Positions 11,654 to 18,141 of a DNA stretch of 58,606 bases are shown in pieces; the stretch's first letter is position 1, and every line of letters starts with the position of its first letter. A program made the position numbers and the translations under genes. The stretch lies in contig NZ_QSEK01000019.1 in the NCBI RefSeq assembly GCF_003464165.1, positions 1 through 58,606 of the forward strand. Reading direction: 5' to 3'. The notes under the pieces were generated by a model. It searched no databases, was not told the DNA's origin, and saw nothing but the letters and a program-made list of their open reading frames with translations. This stretch comes from Eubacterium sp. AM49-13BH. GTDB taxonomy: Bacteria; Bacillota; Clostridia; Lachnospirales; Lachnospiraceae.

Positions 11654-11730
11654 AATTCCTCCATTTGTATTATTATCGCAATTATGGAGGAAGATTTCAA
11701 TAAATATTTGCGCAAACTTCATATTTTATT

Positions 11731-12206
11731 GTCACCCGCCGCCACTCACCCATCAGGCACGCACTGGTCCACTGGGGTCTGGAACACGTTATGAATTGCT
11801 AATTTAGCAAGTGGTGCTTTTGGCTTTTTCTATTGTTTGTGTTCATTCGACATCTGTACACTTCCGTCATTGTGTCCGCCTGTGACCTACGCCCGATATA
11901 TTGCGAACTGTGTGGGAGTTAATGCCGCTATATACATAAGGGCGGTGTGCTAAAGCACGTTCAAGCGGAGCGCGTTTGATTTAGCACACCGTAATAAGCT
12001 TTGTAGATAGCGGCATTTACTCCCACTAAGTGCAGCAATCCTTGAGGGCGTATGCCACAGGCGGACACAATACCAGAAATGTTCATCTGCGAATGGACAC
12101 AAACATTAAGCCAAAAGCACCACCTGATAAATTAACGCAATTCTAACGAATCGTTCCAACCCCAGTGGACCAGTGCGTGCCTGATGGGGGAGTGGCGGCG
12201 GGTGGC
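11731..12206 (+). repeat. Giant imperfect palindrome, copy 1
   Basis: The whole 476 bp folds back on itself. The outer stem pairs 11733-11778 with 12159-12204 with a single mismatch over 46 bp. The arms then pair in many blocks separated by small bulges down to a perfect 12-bp inner stem (11943-11954 with 11980-11991). The 25-nt tip (11955-11979) contains the family loop TTCAAGCGGAGCGCGTTT. A TTAATGCC/GGCATTTA block (11919-11926 with 12012-12019) and an AATCCTTGAGGGC block near 12036 recur in copies 2 and 3. No open frame of note and no transposase are present. It separates two minus-strand genes. Confidence 0.9.
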
Positions 12207-12227
12207 TTAATAATATAAAGTTTGTGT

Positions 12228-12944
12228 CTATATGAACTTGCTGCGCCACTTAATTGCCTCATCCCTATACGCAATTGCTGTCTCCATAAGTTCATTATAC
12301 TGTGCCTTAGCACTTTCTATTGTTGCCTCAAGCTGCGCAATTACCTGCTTAGACTGCGCCTGTTGCTGCATATATGTATTAAGCTGTATCTCATATTCAT
12401 GAATTTTTTCTTCATTTTGTTTCAGGCTGCCTGTATCCTGACACGGTACGAATTTTCCATCTGCCGTAATCTCATAGAAATTATCTACATATAAAAAAGC
12501 TCTTCCCTGCATTCTAAACACTTCATACATATCAACATTTTCACAATCCACAGGAATATTAAGACTGTCACCTTCTTCCAGTGGGCAGACAGCCCTCAGC
12601 GAAAGTCTGTCCGTAAGCGGATTTGTCACCATATAAAACAGCAATAACCTGTCTTTATTTACTACAAGCTGTGGACAGTGCATATCTGGGTTCTCACTGC
12701 TTTTCACACGAAAAAGTGCTTCGTTGTTCATCACATTTTTAACAAGAATATCTCCGTTCTGGTTCTGATATGCATAATATATTGTGTCTCCCAGCACCAC
12801 ATCTGAAAGTCCGTCCAGAAAGTCTGACGCAAGCATTATCGGGCGCTCTATACCGTCTATGTACGCCGTTCTCAAAAATATATATCGTGATATGCTATAG
12901 ATTATAAGCCGTCTGTCGCTGCCTGCTGTGTATACATTTGCCAT
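12228..12944 (-). CDS. Hypothetical protein with C-terminal coiled coil
   Basis: I do not recognise this 238-residue protein. The first 170 residues look like beta-rich repeats of the type used to report values (VLGDTIYYAYQNQNGDILVK, then LLLFYMVTN). The last 65 residues are a strongly predicted coiled coil rich in Q, E and A (NEEKIHEYEIQLNTYMQQ onward). There is no signal peptide or membrane segment. It is transcribed away from the Cys-rich gene at 13036, with 91 bp between the starts, so the two may be co-regulated. Possibly a structural surface or spore-coat-associated protein; this is a guess. Confidence 0.65.
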   Translation of the reverse strand: MANVYTAGSDRRLIIYSISRYIFLRTAYIDGIERPIMLASDFLDGLSDVVLGDTIYYAYQNQNGDILVKNVMNNEALFRVKSSENPDMHCPQLVVNKDRLLLFYMVTNPLTDRLSLRAVCPLEEGDSLNIPVDCENVDMYEVFRMQGRAFLYVDNFYEITADGKFVPCQDTGSLKQNEEKIHEYEIQLNTYMQQQAQSKQVIAQLEATIESAKAQYNELMETAIAYRDEAIKWRSKFI

Positions 12945-13035
12945 AAAAGGACACTCCCGTTTTTACATTATTATATGGTCACGCGAATGTAGATAGAACA
13001 TATAATGTAGTAAAGAAACGAAGAAGGAAAAGATA

Positions 13036-14037
13036 ATGGCTAAATGTAAATGCAGCAAATGTGGTTCTACCCGCATTGTAAGCAATATTGTGCAGAACAT
13101 GCCTAATGGCTGCTTTGATGTGTGCACGAACCCGATATGCGGTTCACCCGATGAACTCAGTATTCTTGCCCCTCTTATCTATGACGAGATAGGTATTAAT
13201 CTGTGTACCACATTCGCTGTCGGCACAGATATTTCAACGACTTATCCAACAGCTACCAACGCATCAGTCAGTGTTATAGATATAACCTACACTTATGGTG
13301 ATGAAAATGTTGAAATCACCCAGATAGCCGGAAGGCCTAACTGCTACTCTGTGAAACTTACCAACCTTACTGTAACATTTGCAGTAACACTTTATGATGA
13401 GTCATGCAGGGCATTAGCAACTCTTACCCCAACGGCAGTCTACCTTCCTAACTCAACTACTGCTGCAACTTATGATGAAGACACCAATCCGACATCTGTG
13501 ACCCTTGAAATATTCGCTCCTTACGGAGTTTCCTACAACTCAAATAACGCAACTCCACCTGTTTATACGCCTGCACTTAACAGTATAGGTTTCTTATCAT
13601 CTGACAATGTTGTAACCCAGGGACTCAACCTCTATGCAATACCTAAGCTTTTAGGTCTTGATATTACAGATGACGAGGTTACGGTAGGTCTCACTCTCAT
13701 CTTACAGAGCCTTTACTTCTGTGGATACCGCGTAACAAGTGCCGGCAGAATCTCAACGCCTAAGGGCAGCATTGTTTCCGGTGAAGAATCAGACTGTATC
13801 AAGTTCGTTTGCGGCAACCTCTTAGACAGAGCCATCAAACCTCTCGATTTAAATCCACCTTCATGTGAAGGTAACTTAAAAAAAGACTGCAAGAAGCCTT
13901 GCATAAATGACTGCACCGACACTCTTAACACTAACAGCACAGCCTGCCAGAACGTTTGTAACAATGGCAATAGCAGCCAGACTTCCTCTGGTGCTTGCGC
14001 CGGATCTTGCAATGGCATATGCAGTAAGACTAACTGA
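13036..14037 (+). CDS. Hypothetical Cys-rich structural protein
   Basis: I do not recognise this 333-residue protein. It begins with a zinc-ribbon-like cluster (CKCSKCGSTR, then CFDVCTNPIC), has a long Thr/Ser/Asn-rich central part of beta character (residues about 60-250), and ends in a tail with many cysteines (residues about 275-330, including CKKPCINDC and CAGSCNGIC). No signal peptide or anchor is seen. Cys-rich tails of this kind occur in cross-linked coat and exosporium proteins, but this is analogy only. GAAGGAAAAG precedes the ATG, a TATAAT box lies at 13001-13006, and a hairpin terminator follows. Confidence 0.7.
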   Translation: MAKCKCSKCGSTRIVSNIVQNMPNGCFDVCTNPICGSPDELSILAPLIYDEIGINLCTTFAVGTDISTTYPTATNASVSVIDITYTYGDENVEITQIAGRPNCYSVKLTNLTVTFAVTLYDESCRALATLTPTAVYLPNSTTAATYDEDTNPTSVTLEIFAPYGVSYNSNNATPPVYTPALNSIGFLSSDNVVTQGLNLYAIPKLLGLDITDDEVTVGLTLILQSLYFCGYRVTSAGRISTPKGSIVSGEESDCIKFVCGNLLDRAIKPLDLNPPSCEGNLKKDCKKPCINDCTDTLNTNSTACQNVCNNGNSSQTSSGACAGSCNGICSKTN

Positions 14038-14051
14038 TAATCTCAATCTGT

Positions 14052-14103
14052 GGGAACAGACGCCTGCCTGGCGGCTGTTCCCATGTACATATTTTCTTCT
14101 TTT
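14052..14103 (+). terminator. Intrinsic terminator
   Basis: GGGAACAG (14052-14059) pairs with CTGTTCCC (14075-14082) around an inner CGCC/GGCG stem. A T-rich tract follows within 20 bases. It lies 15 bases after the stop of the Cys-rich gene. Confidence 0.75.
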
Positions 14104-14273
14104 GGACTTCTGCGCGCCTTTCCTCCGCTTCAACATCCAATCCACCGCTCTTTCTTGCTCCTTTTGGACTTCCTCCGTGTATTCCTCTGCTTCAACGTCC
14201 AATCCACCACTCAATTTCTTCCCTTTTGGACTTTTGCTTGCCTTTCCACTACTTCAACGTCCAATCCCAATCT
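14099..14273 (+). repeat. Three-copy 62-bp tandem repeat
   Basis: Units begin at 14099, 14161 and 14223, exactly 62 bp apart; the third is partial. Each unit opens with CTTTTGGACTT and carries CTTCAACRTCCAATCC about 28 bases later, with a variable stretch between and after. TTGGACTT and AACGTCCAA are inverted relative to each other, so each unit can form a hairpin. Because 62 is not a multiple of three, the repeat is not a protein repeat in any frame. The block fills the gap between a terminator and the promoter of the amino-acid transporter. Confidence 0.85.
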
Positions 14274-14309
14274 ATACGCTCATATTTTCTTCCATCGCAA
14301 ATATTTTAA

Positions 14310-14339
14310 TTGCTAATTCCCATACTATGTGTGTATAAT
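14310..14339 (+). promoter_or_regulatory. Putative sigma-A promoter of amino-acid ABC transporter
   Basis: TTGCTA (14310-14315) and TATAAT (14334-14339) are 18 bp apart, 60 bp before the transporter start. The -10 box matches consensus exactly; the -35 box matches 4 of 6. Confidence 0.6.
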
Positions 14340-14398
14340 TAATGAAATATATTATATTGAACTGTTTTATACACAGTTCGCATGGAAAGGAGTTACTA

Positions 14399-15919
14399 AT
14401 GAATTTTAAAAAGTACAGGTCGAGATTCCTTTTGGTTTTTGCGGCCCTCACTCTCTTGTTCTCTTCTGTTCTTCTTACTTCATGTCAAGGCAAGAAGATT
14501 AAGAATACAGTATTTTCTGTAGATGATCTTGCAGGCAAGACTATTGGTGTTCAGTTAGGAACAACTGGTGATACTCTCGTAAGTGATTACGAAACTGACG
14601 GTTCTGGCACAACTGTATCAAGATACAACAAAGGTTCTGATGCTATACAGGCTTTAAAGCAAGGTAAAGCTGATGCTGTTGTTATTGATGAACAGCCTGC
14701 TTTAGCATTTGTTAAAGCTAATCCAGACCTTACAATTCTTGAAGAAGAATTTGCAAATGAGGATTATGCCATCTGTGTTGCTAAGGGCAATTCCCTTACT
14801 GCAAAGCTCAATGAAGCTATTGAAGTACTTATGGCAGATGGAACTATCCAGAAGCTTATTGATGATTATGTTGGCGATAATGCTACATTTTCAGGTTACA
14901 AATCACCAGACGGTATAAGTCGTACTAATGGAACTCTTGTTATGGCTACAAATGCTTACTTCAAGCCATACGAGTACTATGAAGGGGGTTCTATTATTGG
15001 TATTGACGCTGATATTGCACAGGCTATTGCTGATTACCTCGGAATGAATTTAAAAATTGAGGATATGGAATTTGATTCAATTATCACTGCCGTATCTTCT
15101 GGTAAAGCCGATTTCGGTATGGCTGGTATGACAGTTACTGATGAGCGTAAGAAAAATATCGATTTCACAACTACTTATACAACTTCTAAGCAGGTTATTA
15201 TTGTCCGTGACGACAATGCTTCTGCATCAGGCATGAGTTTTGCTGAGAAGTTCAAGACAGACTTCATTAAAGAAGCAAGATACACTTATCTTCTAAAGGG
15301 TCTGCTAAACACAGTAATTATTGCATTCTTTGCAGCACTTATGGGTGTTGTTATTGGTTTCCTTATTGCAGTTGTCCGTTCTAACCATGATAAGACAGGA
15401 CACATGAAGATTCTTAACTTCATTTGCAACATTTATCTTACTGTAATCAGAGGAACACCAACTATGGTACAGCTGCTTATTATCTATTATGTAATATTCA
15501 GCTCTGTACATATTGACAAGCTTATTGTTGCAATACTTGCATTTGGTATCAACTCAGGTGCTTATGTTGCCGAAATATTCCGTTCAGGTATTATGTCTAT
15601 TGATAACGGACAGTTTGAAGCAGCACGAAGCCTTGGTCTTTCTTATAAAACAACTATGATAAGTGTTATTCTTCCTCAGGCATTCAAGAATGTTCTCCCA
15701 GCACTTGCTAATGAGTTCATTGTTCTGTTAAAGGAAACATCTATCAGCGGTTATATCGGTCTTAACGACCTTACAAGAGGCGGCGATATTATCCGAAGCA
15801 TAACTTATGATCCAATGCTTCCACTTATTGGTGTTGCCATCATCTACCTTGTAATGGTTATGGGACTTTCACAGCTTGTTAAGAAACTTGAGAGGAGGTT
15901 AAGAAACAATGAGCGATAA
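14399..15919 (+). CDS. Amino-acid ABC transporter, permuted substrate-binding domain fused to permease
   Basis: A 506-residue lipoprotein-permease fusion. The start at 14399 has AAAGGAG before it and gives a lipoprotein signal ending in LLTSC. In ordinary family 3 binding proteins the segment LVxATNAxFxPYEY...ERKKNIDF comes first and [16 protein letters not shown]...[10 protein letters not shown] second. Here the second half comes first (residues about 40-165) and the first half follows (about 180-280), so the domain is circularly permuted. The HisM/GlnP-type permease (residues about 300-500) has the EAA loop [14 protein letters not shown]. It overlaps the ATPase gene by 11 bases. Polar amino acids, probably glutamine-like, are the likely substrate. 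Confidence 0.88.
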
Positions 15920-16655
15920 TACTAACGAAATCATACTTGAAGTTAAGGATTTGAAGAAATCTTTTGGCGACCATGTTGTATTAGAATCAATCAATACAAC
16001 AGTCCGCAAAGGAGAGGTTATTGCAATTATCGGACCATCTGGCTGCGGTAAATCAACATTTTTGCGTTCACTTAACCTTCTTGAAACTCCTACAGAAGGT
16101 CATGTATTATTCCATGAGCAGGATCTTACAGATAAGAGTGTAAATGTGGATGAATTAAGAGAGAAGATTGGAATGGTGTTCCAGCATTTTAACCTTTTCC
16201 CTAATATGACTATAAGAAGAAACATAACTCTTGCTCCTACTAAGCTTGGACTTATGAGCAAGGAAGAAGCTGATAAGAAAGCTGATGAGCTTCTTGCAAG
16301 AGTGGGACTTTCTGACAAAGCCGATGCTTATCCTAACCAGTTAAGTGGTGGTCAGAAGCAGCGAGTTGCTATTGCAAGAGCACTTGCAATGAATCCTGAG
16401 ATAATGCTTTTCGACGAGCCGACATCCGCACTTGATCCTGAAATGGTTGGTGAGGTTCTCGCAATCATGAAGGAACTTGCTGCATCAGGAATGACAATGA
16501 TTGTCGTAACTCATGAGATGGGATTTGCAAAAGAAGTTGCCAACAGATGCATGTTCTTCTATGATGGAGTCATCAATGAAGAGGGGGCTCCGGAAGAATT
16601 CTTTGGCAATCCTAAGAGTGAGAGATTGAAGGATTTCTTGTCGAAGGTGCTTTAA
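15909..16655 (+). CDS. glnQ: Polar amino-acid ABC transporter ATPase (GlnQ-like)
   Basis: A 248-residue ATPase with Walker [10 protein letters not shown] (about residue 41), Q-loop in [13 protein letters not shown], signature QLSGGQKQR, Walker [16 protein letters not shown] and the switch histidine in VVTHEMGFA. The HFNLFPNMT stretch is typical of the GlnQ/HisP group. It starts inside the end of the fused binding protein-permease gene behind GAGGAGG, so the two polypeptides are made together and suffice for a complete importer, with a homodimer of each. Downstream lies the inverted palindrome copy 2, which may also end transcription. Confidence 0.93.
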
Positions 16656-16665
16656 TTAGTACAAA

Positions 16666-16885
16666 GGTGGGCATTGAGATAGGGAGATGTTATACAAGCC
16701 TCATGGATGCCTGCACCTAGTGTAAGTAAATGCCGTCATATACAATGTCTTTTAGCTGTGTAAAAATCAAACGCGCTTCGCTTGAACGAGATTTTTACAC
16801 AGCACTTTTGTATATAAGGGCATTAACTTACACACGGTTCGGCATAAATCGGTCTTGCATAACATCTCCCAATCTCAAAGCCACC
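16666..16885 (-). repeat. Giant imperfect palindrome, copy 2 (inverted)
   Basis: A 220-bp foldback element lying 10 bp after the ATPase gene. A perfect 14-bp inner stem (16755-16768 with 16790-16803) closes a 21-nt loop whose minus-strand reading is identical to that of copy 3. The element is in the opposite orientation to copies 1 and 3: the TTAATGCC-type strand is on the right arm (16819-16826) and its partner on the left (16727-16734), and the loop is reversed accordingly. Outer pairing includes GGTGG (16666-16670) with CCACC (16881-16885) and GGGAGATGTTAT with ATAACATCTCCC. Confidence 0.9.
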
Positions 16886-17131
16886 ACCCCGCTACTAGGC
16901 AGCCAAAATAAGTGCAGACATGCAGTACAGTATACATTACATCTCTATTGGTATTCCCATATGTTCATTCCATATTTCTTCTGCATTATCTGCAATAGAT
17001 CCCTGCACTATATGCAAAAAGTTATGAAAAATTTTGTTCAAGTCCATCAAAACAAACATATCCACACCCAGAATGCAATGCCGCAGGCGAGCATTTGTCC
17101 GGAGGCTGACTACCTGGTGAAGAAGAAGTCA
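16886..17131. other. Spacer between palindromes, no gene seen
   Basis: No convincing gene lies here. Open frames across it run into the palindromes and resemble nothing known to me. A small inverted repeat, AATGC...GCATT around 17071-17094, and a GGCTGAC/GTCAGCC pair (17104-17110 with 17127-17133) lead into copy 3. Confidence 0.5.
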
Positions 17132-17381
17132 GCCGTACAGTATGCTGTGGGATAGGTGTGTGGTGTCCTTAGGTGTATGCCCGAATATTCTTATGTCGTG
17201 TGAAAGTTAATGCCGCAATCTGCTAAAAATTGTGGCTTGTAATCTCGTTCAAGCGAAGCGCGTTTGATTACAAGCCACATAAAAAACTCAGCAGATTGCG
17301 GCATTTAGTTTCACTAGACATAGGAATCCTGAGGGCAGATGCCTAAGGACACCACACACCCTCCCACAGCTACTGTACGGC
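17132..17381 (+). repeat. Giant imperfect palindrome, copy 3
   Basis: A 250-bp foldback element. The outer stem pairs GCCGTACAG (17132-17140) with CTGTACGGC (17373-17381), then GGTGTGTGGTGTCCTTAGG with its complement. The perfect inner stem (17231-17244 with 17266-17279) closes a 21-nt loop (17245-17265) containing TTCAAGCGAAGCGCGTTT. The TTAATGCC/GGCATTTA block (17207-17214 with 17300-17307) has the same T-T mismatch as copy 1, and AATCCTGAGGGC near 17326 matches the copy 1 block. A looser match (17101-17107 with 17395-17401) may extend the element into the end of truA. Confidence 0.9.
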
Positions 17382-17391
17382 GTCCGGTCTA

Positions 17392-18141
17392 TCAAGCCTC
17401 CTTCGAGTAGTCAACCTTCAGAAGACACAGTCCCTTTGCCGGTGCAGTTGCACCTGCAAGGCTTCTGTTTCTCTCCTCTAAAAGTTGATGCATACTCTCT
17501 GGTGTTCTCTTTCCCTGTCCAACTTCAAGAAGTGTACCACTTAAGATTCTTACCATGTACTGCAGGAATCCGCTTCCATGATATGTAAGATTAAGGAATG
17601 AACCCTTTAAAGAAACATCTATCGAATAAATCTCACGGACTGTCGATTTCTTCATCTTGGGATTACCACAAAATGATGCAAAATCATGTTCCCCAGTAAG
17701 TATGTCTGCTGCCCTCTTCATGGCATCAACATCCAGCTTACCCTCAATTATATTGACATATTTTCTGTTAAATACAGGCTTCTTATCCCCAACATAACAT
17801 GTATAGCAATAAGTTTTCCCCTGTGCATTGTAACGGCTGTGGAATCTGTCAGATGCAACACGAACCTCCTGCACACAGATATCTTCTGGAAGATATCTGT
17901 TCATATAATCGCATATCTCATCTTCCTTCATCTTTGTTTCCATATGTGCATTAGCTACCATTCCCTTTGCATGAACTCCGGCATCTGTTCTTCCTGCACC
18001 TATAACCTCAACCTCAGTTCCTGTCATGGCAGAAAGCACTGATTCTAACTTTCCCTGAATTGTCATATCTGTAGTTGGCTGATGTTCCCAGCCATAATAC
18101 CTTGTACCATCATAAGTGATTATCATCTTATAATTCTTCAT
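17392..18141 (-). CDS. truA: tRNA pseudouridine(38-40) synthase
   Basis: Isomerises uridines 38-40 in the anticodon arm of many tRNAs. The 249-residue product has the usual length. The catalytic aspartate lies in GAGRTDAGVHAKG (about residue 52), and the family motifs YDGTRYYGWEHQP near the N-terminus and GSGFLQYMVRILSGTLLEVG near residue 190 are present. The protein ends normally (LLKVDYSKEA). It follows recQ after 42 bp on the same strand, and the giant palindrome copy 3 begins within 11 bp after its stop codon, where it could end the transcript. Confidence 0.96.
   Translation of the reverse strand: MKNYKMIITYDGTRYYGWEHQPTTDMTIQGKLESVLSAMTGTEVEVIGAGRTDAGVHAKGMVANAHMETKMKEDEICDYMNRYLPEDICVQEVRVASDRFHSRYNAQGKTYCYTCYVGDKKPVFNRKYVNIIEGKLDVDAMKRAADILTGEHDFASFCGNPKMKKSTVREIYSIDVSLKGSFLNLTYHGSGFLQYMVRILSGTLLEVGQGKRTPESMHQLLEERNRSLAGATAPAKGLCLLKVDYSKEA

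Follow-up and report, generated by a model that had tools for sequence, protein, structure and literature searches.

Three giant foldbacks in the genome of Eubacterium sp. AM49-13BH (contig NZ_QSEK01000019.1, positions 1 to 58,606; this whole stretch of 58,606 nucleotides is called the window) belong to a family that is a dispersed repeat of several gut, rumen and oral Bacillota with a scattered distribution. The family is regarded here, with moderate confidence, as an apparently non-coding DNA foldback in which template switching during replication keeps the arms paired and extends them round a conserved tip. It combines extreme covariation with an outer stem lacking the wobble preference of RNA, and thus offers a possible system for testing template switching as a source of hairpins. 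The copies of the window and their parts are listed below; core scores refer to the covariance model R1, built from an alignment (A1) that includes all three copies, and G035 is a carrier genome from outside the genus Lachnospira.

11713–12224, plus strand: copy 1, a long foldback from CAAACTT to AAGTTTG; pairing extends to about 11704–12233, and the ends resemble those of the G035 copies (by eye)
11894–12053, plus strand: conserved core of copy 1 (R1, 170.7 bits; the copy itself is in A1)
11958–11979, plus strand: invariant loop of copy 1 with the tip GCGGAGC (pattern match)
16666–16888, minus strand: copy 2, a foldback with its loop on the minus strand (folding and local alignment)
16694–16851, minus strand: conserved core of copy 2 (R1, 150.1 bits; the copy itself is in A1)
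16767–16788, minus strand: invariant loop of copy 2 with the tip GCGAAGC (pattern match)
17132–17381, plus strand: copy 3, a foldback found by folding; a looser alignment extends it to 17074–17452
17182–17340, plus strand: conserved core of copy 3 (R1, 164.1 bits; the copy itself is in A1)
17246–17267, plus strand: invariant loop of copy 3 with the tip GCGAAGC (pattern match)

The first-pass annotation of the window had reported three giant foldbacks, and these are present with a stability far beyond chance. RNA folding gives -314.5, -105.1 and -168.6 kcal/mol for copies 1, 2 and 3 (z = -24.4, -11.7 and -19.9), and no shuffled sequence was as stable (0/100, 0/200 and 0/200, respectively). The foldback of copy 1, previously placed at 11731–12206, is confirmed but the element is longer: its ends, CAAACTT (11713–11719) and AAGTTTG (12218–12224), enclose about 512 bp (11713–12224), and its outer arms (11704–11778 and 12159–12233) are 85% complementary. 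The loop pattern CGTTCAAGCGNAGCGCGTTTGA, with up to three mismatches permitted, matches the window three times, always without a mismatch, while none is expected from 100 shuffles. As annotated, copies 2 and 3 have identical loops, and that of copy 1 differs by two changes among the 21 positions originally considered. The orientation required correction: copy 2 runs opposite to the other two, and the identical loops of copies 2 and 3 lie on opposite strands. The closing stems of these two copies are indeed perfect over 14 bp each and different in sequence. Applied to the whole window, R1 produces six matches, which are both strands of the three palindromes and nothing else.

The loop tip of about 20 nt contains a GCGNAGC mini-hairpin. 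The loop can itself pair CAAGCG with CGTTTG, as had been noticed, and GCGNAGC adds two covarying base pairs. Both pairs are intact in 51 of 54 Lachnospira tips and in 22 of 24 tips of G227, another carrier from outside the genus. Seven of the 51 intact Lachnospira tips, at five loci, are maintained via compensatory change (A-T replaces G-C in six, at four loci, and T-A replaces C-G in one). Lachnospira tips have A, T or G as the middle base; in Selenomonas, C occurs too. DNA mini-hairpins of the GCGNAGC type are known mainly from biophysics and aptamer design. GNA and GNNA loops closed by at least two G-C pairs are described in passages of PMC4686876 as unusually stable DNA mini-hairpins, the GCGAAGC fragment melting at 78 °C. 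A tip-binding protein, if any, would recognize a DNA mini-hairpin.

Below the tip, 32 of the 42 pairs of the Lachnospira core (54 cores) are changed on both sides. Pairing is retained in 97.0% of cells, compared with 80.9% in shuffled and at most 45.4% in slid controls, and the covariation score is 0.474 (0.162 shuffled, at most 0.082 slid). The existence of a family that conserves its loop and preserves pairing in its stems, as proposed earlier, is strongly supported; the covariation suggested as a check is present and strong. DNA-parameter folds, compared by eye, give a common layout, in which an unpaired AT-rich stretch of the 3' side separates an apical stem of about 9–17 bp from a second stem. 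This layout is shared by the unrelated-looking stems of Lachnospira, Selenomonas, S. ruminantium, Blautia, RUI060 and G144; there are two kinds of exception. At L229, L255 and L290 (Lapin metagenome-assembled-genome loci), the motif is not at the tip of the long foldback; the apex is branched, and another small hairpin adjoins the motif. At eight G035 loci (L120, L125, L129, L132, L134, L136, L139 and L142) the loop is longer by about 30 AT-rich bases at the mini-hairpin, and GTTCAAGC and GCGCGTTTG are kept on either side of the extra bases.

Further copies, which the first-pass annotation had proposed to search for in related genomes, exist in Lachnospira, in other Lachnospiraceae and in Selenomonas. 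The loop pattern (up to three mismatches) has 12, 17, 17, 11 and 4 matches in the Lachnospira genomes G001, G012, G018, G020 and G009, respectively. Sixty of these and the three of the window were examined (one three-mismatch match of G018 was left out), and 57 of the 63 are central to a foldback (local score of at least 60) of 173–613 bp by local alignment with arms capped at 500. A1 comprises 54 rows, leaving out six weak foldbacks, two duplicate cores and locus L084. R1 finds matches in 5/22 genomes of the genus Lachnospira, 6/299 of the family, 4/392 of the order and 5/398 of the phylum; these sets overlap, all contain G001, and the larger ones were searched under stricter filters that lose weak matches. 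Besides G001, the phylum-set matches fall in four genomes of one family of the same phylum; the f62 matches of this set (L195–L211) were not checked individually. The 78 both-strand matches in G227 correspond to 44 places (counted by hand, each palindrome once).

The exact loop pattern occurs in at least 120 stretches of the genome_contigs collection, 80 loci of which were examined. Among these 80 listed loci there are 80 testable matches, 67 of them with a foldback score of at least 40; the 13 below this value include all eight matches from outside Bacillota (scores 20–35). Foldback carriers include Selenomonas massiliensis, S. infelix, S. ruminantium, Centipeda periodontii, a Blautia metagenome-assembled genome and Lachnospiraceae metagenome-assembled genomes. 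Loci L378–L384 and L386–L392, together with most loci from one further search, were left out of the analysis. Draft contigs end at or inside hairpins (L376 and L377 in G020; L349 and L352 in G227), and copy numbers in draft genomes may therefore be underestimates.

Rfam 15 at the gathering score gives only tRNA in the whole window and no family on the elements, in agreement with the earlier impression that no described RNA family matches. Scans by E-value (the window elements and L120; nine fetched loci) return only eukaryotic miRNA-type families far below gathering. A phage origin was rejected: the exact loop pattern has no matches in viral_contigs, and copy 3 has no blastn match in phages. 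A plasmid origin was rejected as well, the blastn search of plasmids with copy 3 leading only to two Lachnospira eligens records. The DNA of the window is itself very probably from Lachnospira: copy 3 has blastn matches to L. eligens records, and among the genomes compared G001 comes nearest, with 42% of sampled words shared. Searches of the open-licence literature listed no prior description of the hairpin family.

The character of mismatches differs between the parts of the stem. An isolated mismatch was defined by two good pairs on each side and counted in 32 Lachnospira copies (about one copy per locus), 23 copies of G227 and 10 of G035. In the outer arms, G-T, A-C and other mismatches number 33, 44 and 75 in Lachnospira, 20, 55 and 94 in G227, and 12, 15 and 31 in G035; the corresponding core values are 20, 5 and 54; 8, 1 and 31; and 2, 4 and 6. 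The outer stem shows no RNA-type wobble preference. The core has a modest wobble preference in two of the three sets, which is what RNA or DNA folded as a single strand would give; of the 20 core G-T mismatches in Lachnospira, 10 fall at one and the same position, and a fixed T-T is among the 54 mismatches of other kinds. If three good pairs are required and whole stems are taken, the G-T to A-C ratios are 60:55, 18:40 and 9:10 (57 Lachnospira, 23 G227 and 10 G035 copies). The excess of A-C over G-T in the G227 outer arms, 55 to 20, is a strand asymmetry.

Alignment of 24 copy pairs (23 of orthologues; the remaining one, window copy 1 with L038, of paralogues) shows that the mismatches created by single changes are G-T in 89 cases, A-C in 61 and of other kinds in 94. 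Both bases were altered in 60 base pairs so as to give another standard pair, and in 27 further base pairs with a different outcome. Strong covariation need not mean RNA, since DNA template switching can produce the same signal. The argument of the first-pass annotation that diverging paired stems are the signature of selection for structure is unsupported for the outer arms, which have no G-T preference and into which flanks are drawn.

If one arm serves as the template of the other and synthesis continues beyond the element, the flanks past the terminus should be complementary as well. Such complementarity (anchored score of at least 16) is found in 10 of 38 G227 and G035 copies, compared with 6 of 846 mispaired flanks; at a score of 20 the values are 9 of 38 and 1 of 846. 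Termini were located automatically, which is weak for some copies, and copies with too short flanks were unscored. In L119, two convergent open reading frames (ORFs) provide the flanks with their 3' ends, which align over about 55 nt; one of these ORFs has a CxxCxxCxxxCP motif and is read as ferredoxin-like; L344 is similar, with one ORF end. These ORF ends come from a loose search of outer limits, the overshooting lengths of which were not used. In Selenomonas the outermost stems reach a score of at least 8 in 16 of 18 copies versus 35 of 306 mispairs; this set contains some near relatives, so that its members are not independent, and one copy without a recognizable terminus and repeated contexts were dropped from it. 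The short cases, but hardly the coding ones, would also be explained if the element had inserted into an inverted repeat that was already there, for instance a terminator. G+T skew of the 5' arm was considered as a sign of polar copying and rejected as not general: it is present in 28/30 Lachnospira, 19/23 G227 and 10/10 G035 copies, but only in 5/23 of Selenomonas, 3/10 of S. ruminantium and 0/9 of three smaller sets.

The fetched Lachnospira loci, grouped by hand according to flank similarity, comprise 16 loci represented in at least two genomes and 13 in one. Orthologous sites may hold a different hairpin, a collapsed hairpin (L185, L188, L189, L190) or none (L173, L174); between L031 and L058, which are one locus, a block is replaced in both arms (by eye). 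Orthologues diverge by 3.1% in the loop, 5.4% in the core, 10.7% in the outer arms and 8.2% in the far flanks (37 non-independent pairs). Because core and tip diverge less than outer arms and far flanks, they look constrained in place. A recent insertion at the L038 site was considered and rejected: G018 and G012 are empty, yet G020 and G009 are occupied (in G020 by a like element broken across contig ends, in G009 by another foldback), so that gain and loss are indistinguishable. The G009 occupant (L374) is a different insert of about 290 bp, a long foldback with -113.1 kcal/mol for 305 nt under RNA parameters.

PMC8794818 proposes that hairpin stems arise and are repaired through template switching, primed by a folded-back nascent strand, which can fix stems with the loop kept; GNRA and CTTG loops, which are stable in DNA too, are enriched among template-switch events. 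In the present family, the nascent strand would fold back at the tip during replication and copy its own arm. Template switching could then repair mismatches, homogenize the arms and lengthen the palindrome. This mechanism fits because the outer arms lack wobble preference and flanks are drawn into the stem, and also because the tip is an exceptionally stable DNA mini-hairpin. A hypothetical trans-acting partner reading one folded strand is suggested by the core G-T excess and the slow divergence of core and loop. Such a partner would read core and tip, and its reading might either spread the element or give it a role at its site. Collapsed copies are observed, and elements would be lost through palindrome collapse if the change proceeds in this direction. 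The first-pass annotation had proposed a structured non-coding RNA or hairpin DNA handled by an enzyme; hairpin DNA with a factor of this kind fits better, though the core, with its G-T excess in two of three sets, may have a role as RNA.

Several observations weigh against template switching as a full account. Core mismatches are more often G-T than A-C in two sets, Lachnospira and G227, with G035 as the exception, and the core may consequently be selected as RNA or as strand-specific single-stranded DNA; neutral copying alone is insufficient for the slow divergence of core and loop. Unrestricted copying of arms would erase the conserved asymmetric internal loops. The tip rule is not strict: the first G of GNA is altered in 4/54 Lachnospira and 5/24 G227 tips, and in G035 a larger loop with about 30 extra bases replaces the mini-hairpin. 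No clear flank extension is present in 28 of the 38 copies scored. Loops of 3 nt are depleted among template-switch events in the table of PMC8794818 itself. No template-switch event was observed in this analysis, and no partner protein was found in the clusters sampled from 181 loci. A further possibility is put forward only tentatively, namely that the tip is a replicating palindrome-maker, the mini-hairpin of which self-primes the nascent strand so that adjoining DNA is copied into a growing, self-correcting stem. If so, the unit of selection would be the tip of about 20 nt with the core, the stems would be disposable, and the ends of neighboring genes would be rewritable.

A structured non-coding RNA, in which core and tip are transcribed, folded and bound by protein and the long variable stems protect or present the core, would account for strong covariation, conserved internal loops, the core G-T excess in two of three sets and the lower divergence of core and loop than of flanks between orthologues. 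We consider it unlikely in view of the outer arms, which have no wobble preference and incorporate neighboring DNA, of the absence of an Rfam family at gathering score on the elements, and of tandem gene contexts, where 7 elements share the orientation of the genes and 16 oppose it. Somewhat less credible again is a conventional miniature inverted-repeat transposable element (MITE), non-autonomous and moved in trans by a terminus-binding transposase, with the loop merely inherited. The 44 places in G227 agree with it, as do sites filled in some genomes and empty in others. So do related termini of the CTCARACTT or AAACTTCC types; termini are recognizable within G227 and G035 and in window copy 1, but the outermost pairs are copy-specific. 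Target-site duplication, however, is not consistent by eye (no statistical test was applied): there are a few AT-rich direct matches, and other copies have inverted flanks instead. Besides, the loop is common to subfamilies with unrelated-looking stems, ORF clustering round the 181 loci gave no partner in the sampled clusters, and intact Y1 transposase genes do not track the elements within the genus, other transposase families not having been searched.

A site of recombination or transposition read as a folded single DNA strand, like integron attC, IS200/IS605 or hairpins of repetitive extragenic palindromic (REP) sequences, could explain the tip covariation and the similar layout across unrelated-looking stems (apical stem, unpaired AT-rich 3' stretch; by eye). 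It is judged improbable: Y1_Tnp is absent from carrier G012 and represented only by fragments in G009 and G020, and no cassette arrays were seen, though none were searched for. The least probable is an element of 3' ends or domains that the host maintains where genes converge, as a bidirectional terminator, an insulator or a nucleoid site. Its favorable evidence is the slow divergence of core and loop and the convergent setting in Lachnospira (25/57; 13/30 once per locus), G227 (16/25 non-edge) and the named set (16/47 non-edge), compared with 27/169 other gaps in the control. Against it, the G035 copies have no such bias (1/10), and some orthologous sites are empty or collapsed.

We file the family, with template switching as the preferred mechanism, among dispersed palindromic repeats and not as a member of REP, MITE or RNA families. 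REP sequences with their composite forms (REPIN and BIME) are likewise dispersed intergenic palindromes. Among the comparators of MITE and foldback type are ERIC/RU, Correia/NEMIS and YPAL. These share dispersed inverted repeats without evident genes, patchy distribution and empty sites with the present family, the arms of which are longer, the loop common to unrelated-looking stems, the outermost stems copy-specific and the target duplication not clear. Integron attC sites have variable apical parts and conserved basal boxes; they also form imperfect hairpins with conserved unpaired features readable as single-stranded DNA, whereas the present elements are most conserved at the apex. Passages of PMC3733652 describe REPs as 20–40 bp long, ending in GTAG or CGTC, and hypothesized to be miniature transposons moved by REP-associated tyrosine transposases (RAYTs, TnpA_REP). 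The present elements, in contrast, measure 173–613 bp (57 foldbacks, local alignment), and Y1 transposase genes do not follow them within the genus. Quasipalindrome template switching is described (PMC8794818; see also PMC7202029) as a mutation process acting on hairpins, with arms made complementary by copying and the loop retained; in the present case it seems to be the basis of a whole family of dispersed repeats, the tip of which is conserved and stable as DNA.

The element is likely mobile. Co-occurrence with a Y1 transposase was rejected as an explanation of the distribution, because intact genes do not follow the elements within the genus: PF01797 is found in 13/22 genomes of Lachnospira, and among the carriers the best copies of G001 and G018 are interrupted by stops, G009 and G020 have fragments and G012 has none. 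The partner search clustered 2509 ORFs of at least 100 aa from 181 loci; beside the elements only ordinary families and no partner gene were found among the sampled clusters. The largest cluster (25 ORFs from 24 loci) gave ABC ATPases in the six members that were scanned; four other clusters, each sampled through a single member, gave a RecG-type helicase, a P-type ATPase, MatE and YitT. The second largest cluster, the named member of which runs through a hairpin, was left out of the scan.

SbcCD cleaves a 246-bp interrupted palindrome in E. coli (passages of PMC3315005). Long palindromes are thus expected targets of this nuclease, yet the SbcD-positive carriers G035 and G227 retain hairpins of about 500 bp. 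SbcD exceeds the cut-off in 205/299 genomes of the family. Within Lachnospira, it does so in 0/5 carriers and 12/17 non-carriers (Fisher p of about 0.01, calculated by hand; the carriers are related). Absence of SbcD was rejected as a condition for giant hairpins, since it fails outside Lachnospira, where four carriers (G035, G119, G144 and G227) possess SbcD and two (G131 and G643) do not reach the cut-off.

In the window, copies 2 and 3 are flanked by genes of an ABC ATPase (PF00005) and a tRNA pseudouridine synthase (PF01416); three further ORFs near these copies have no Pfam match at E 0.001. Three 45-nt direct repeats with 62-base spacing (CTTTTGGACTT...) occupy 14099–14267, directly after an ORF ending at 14037.

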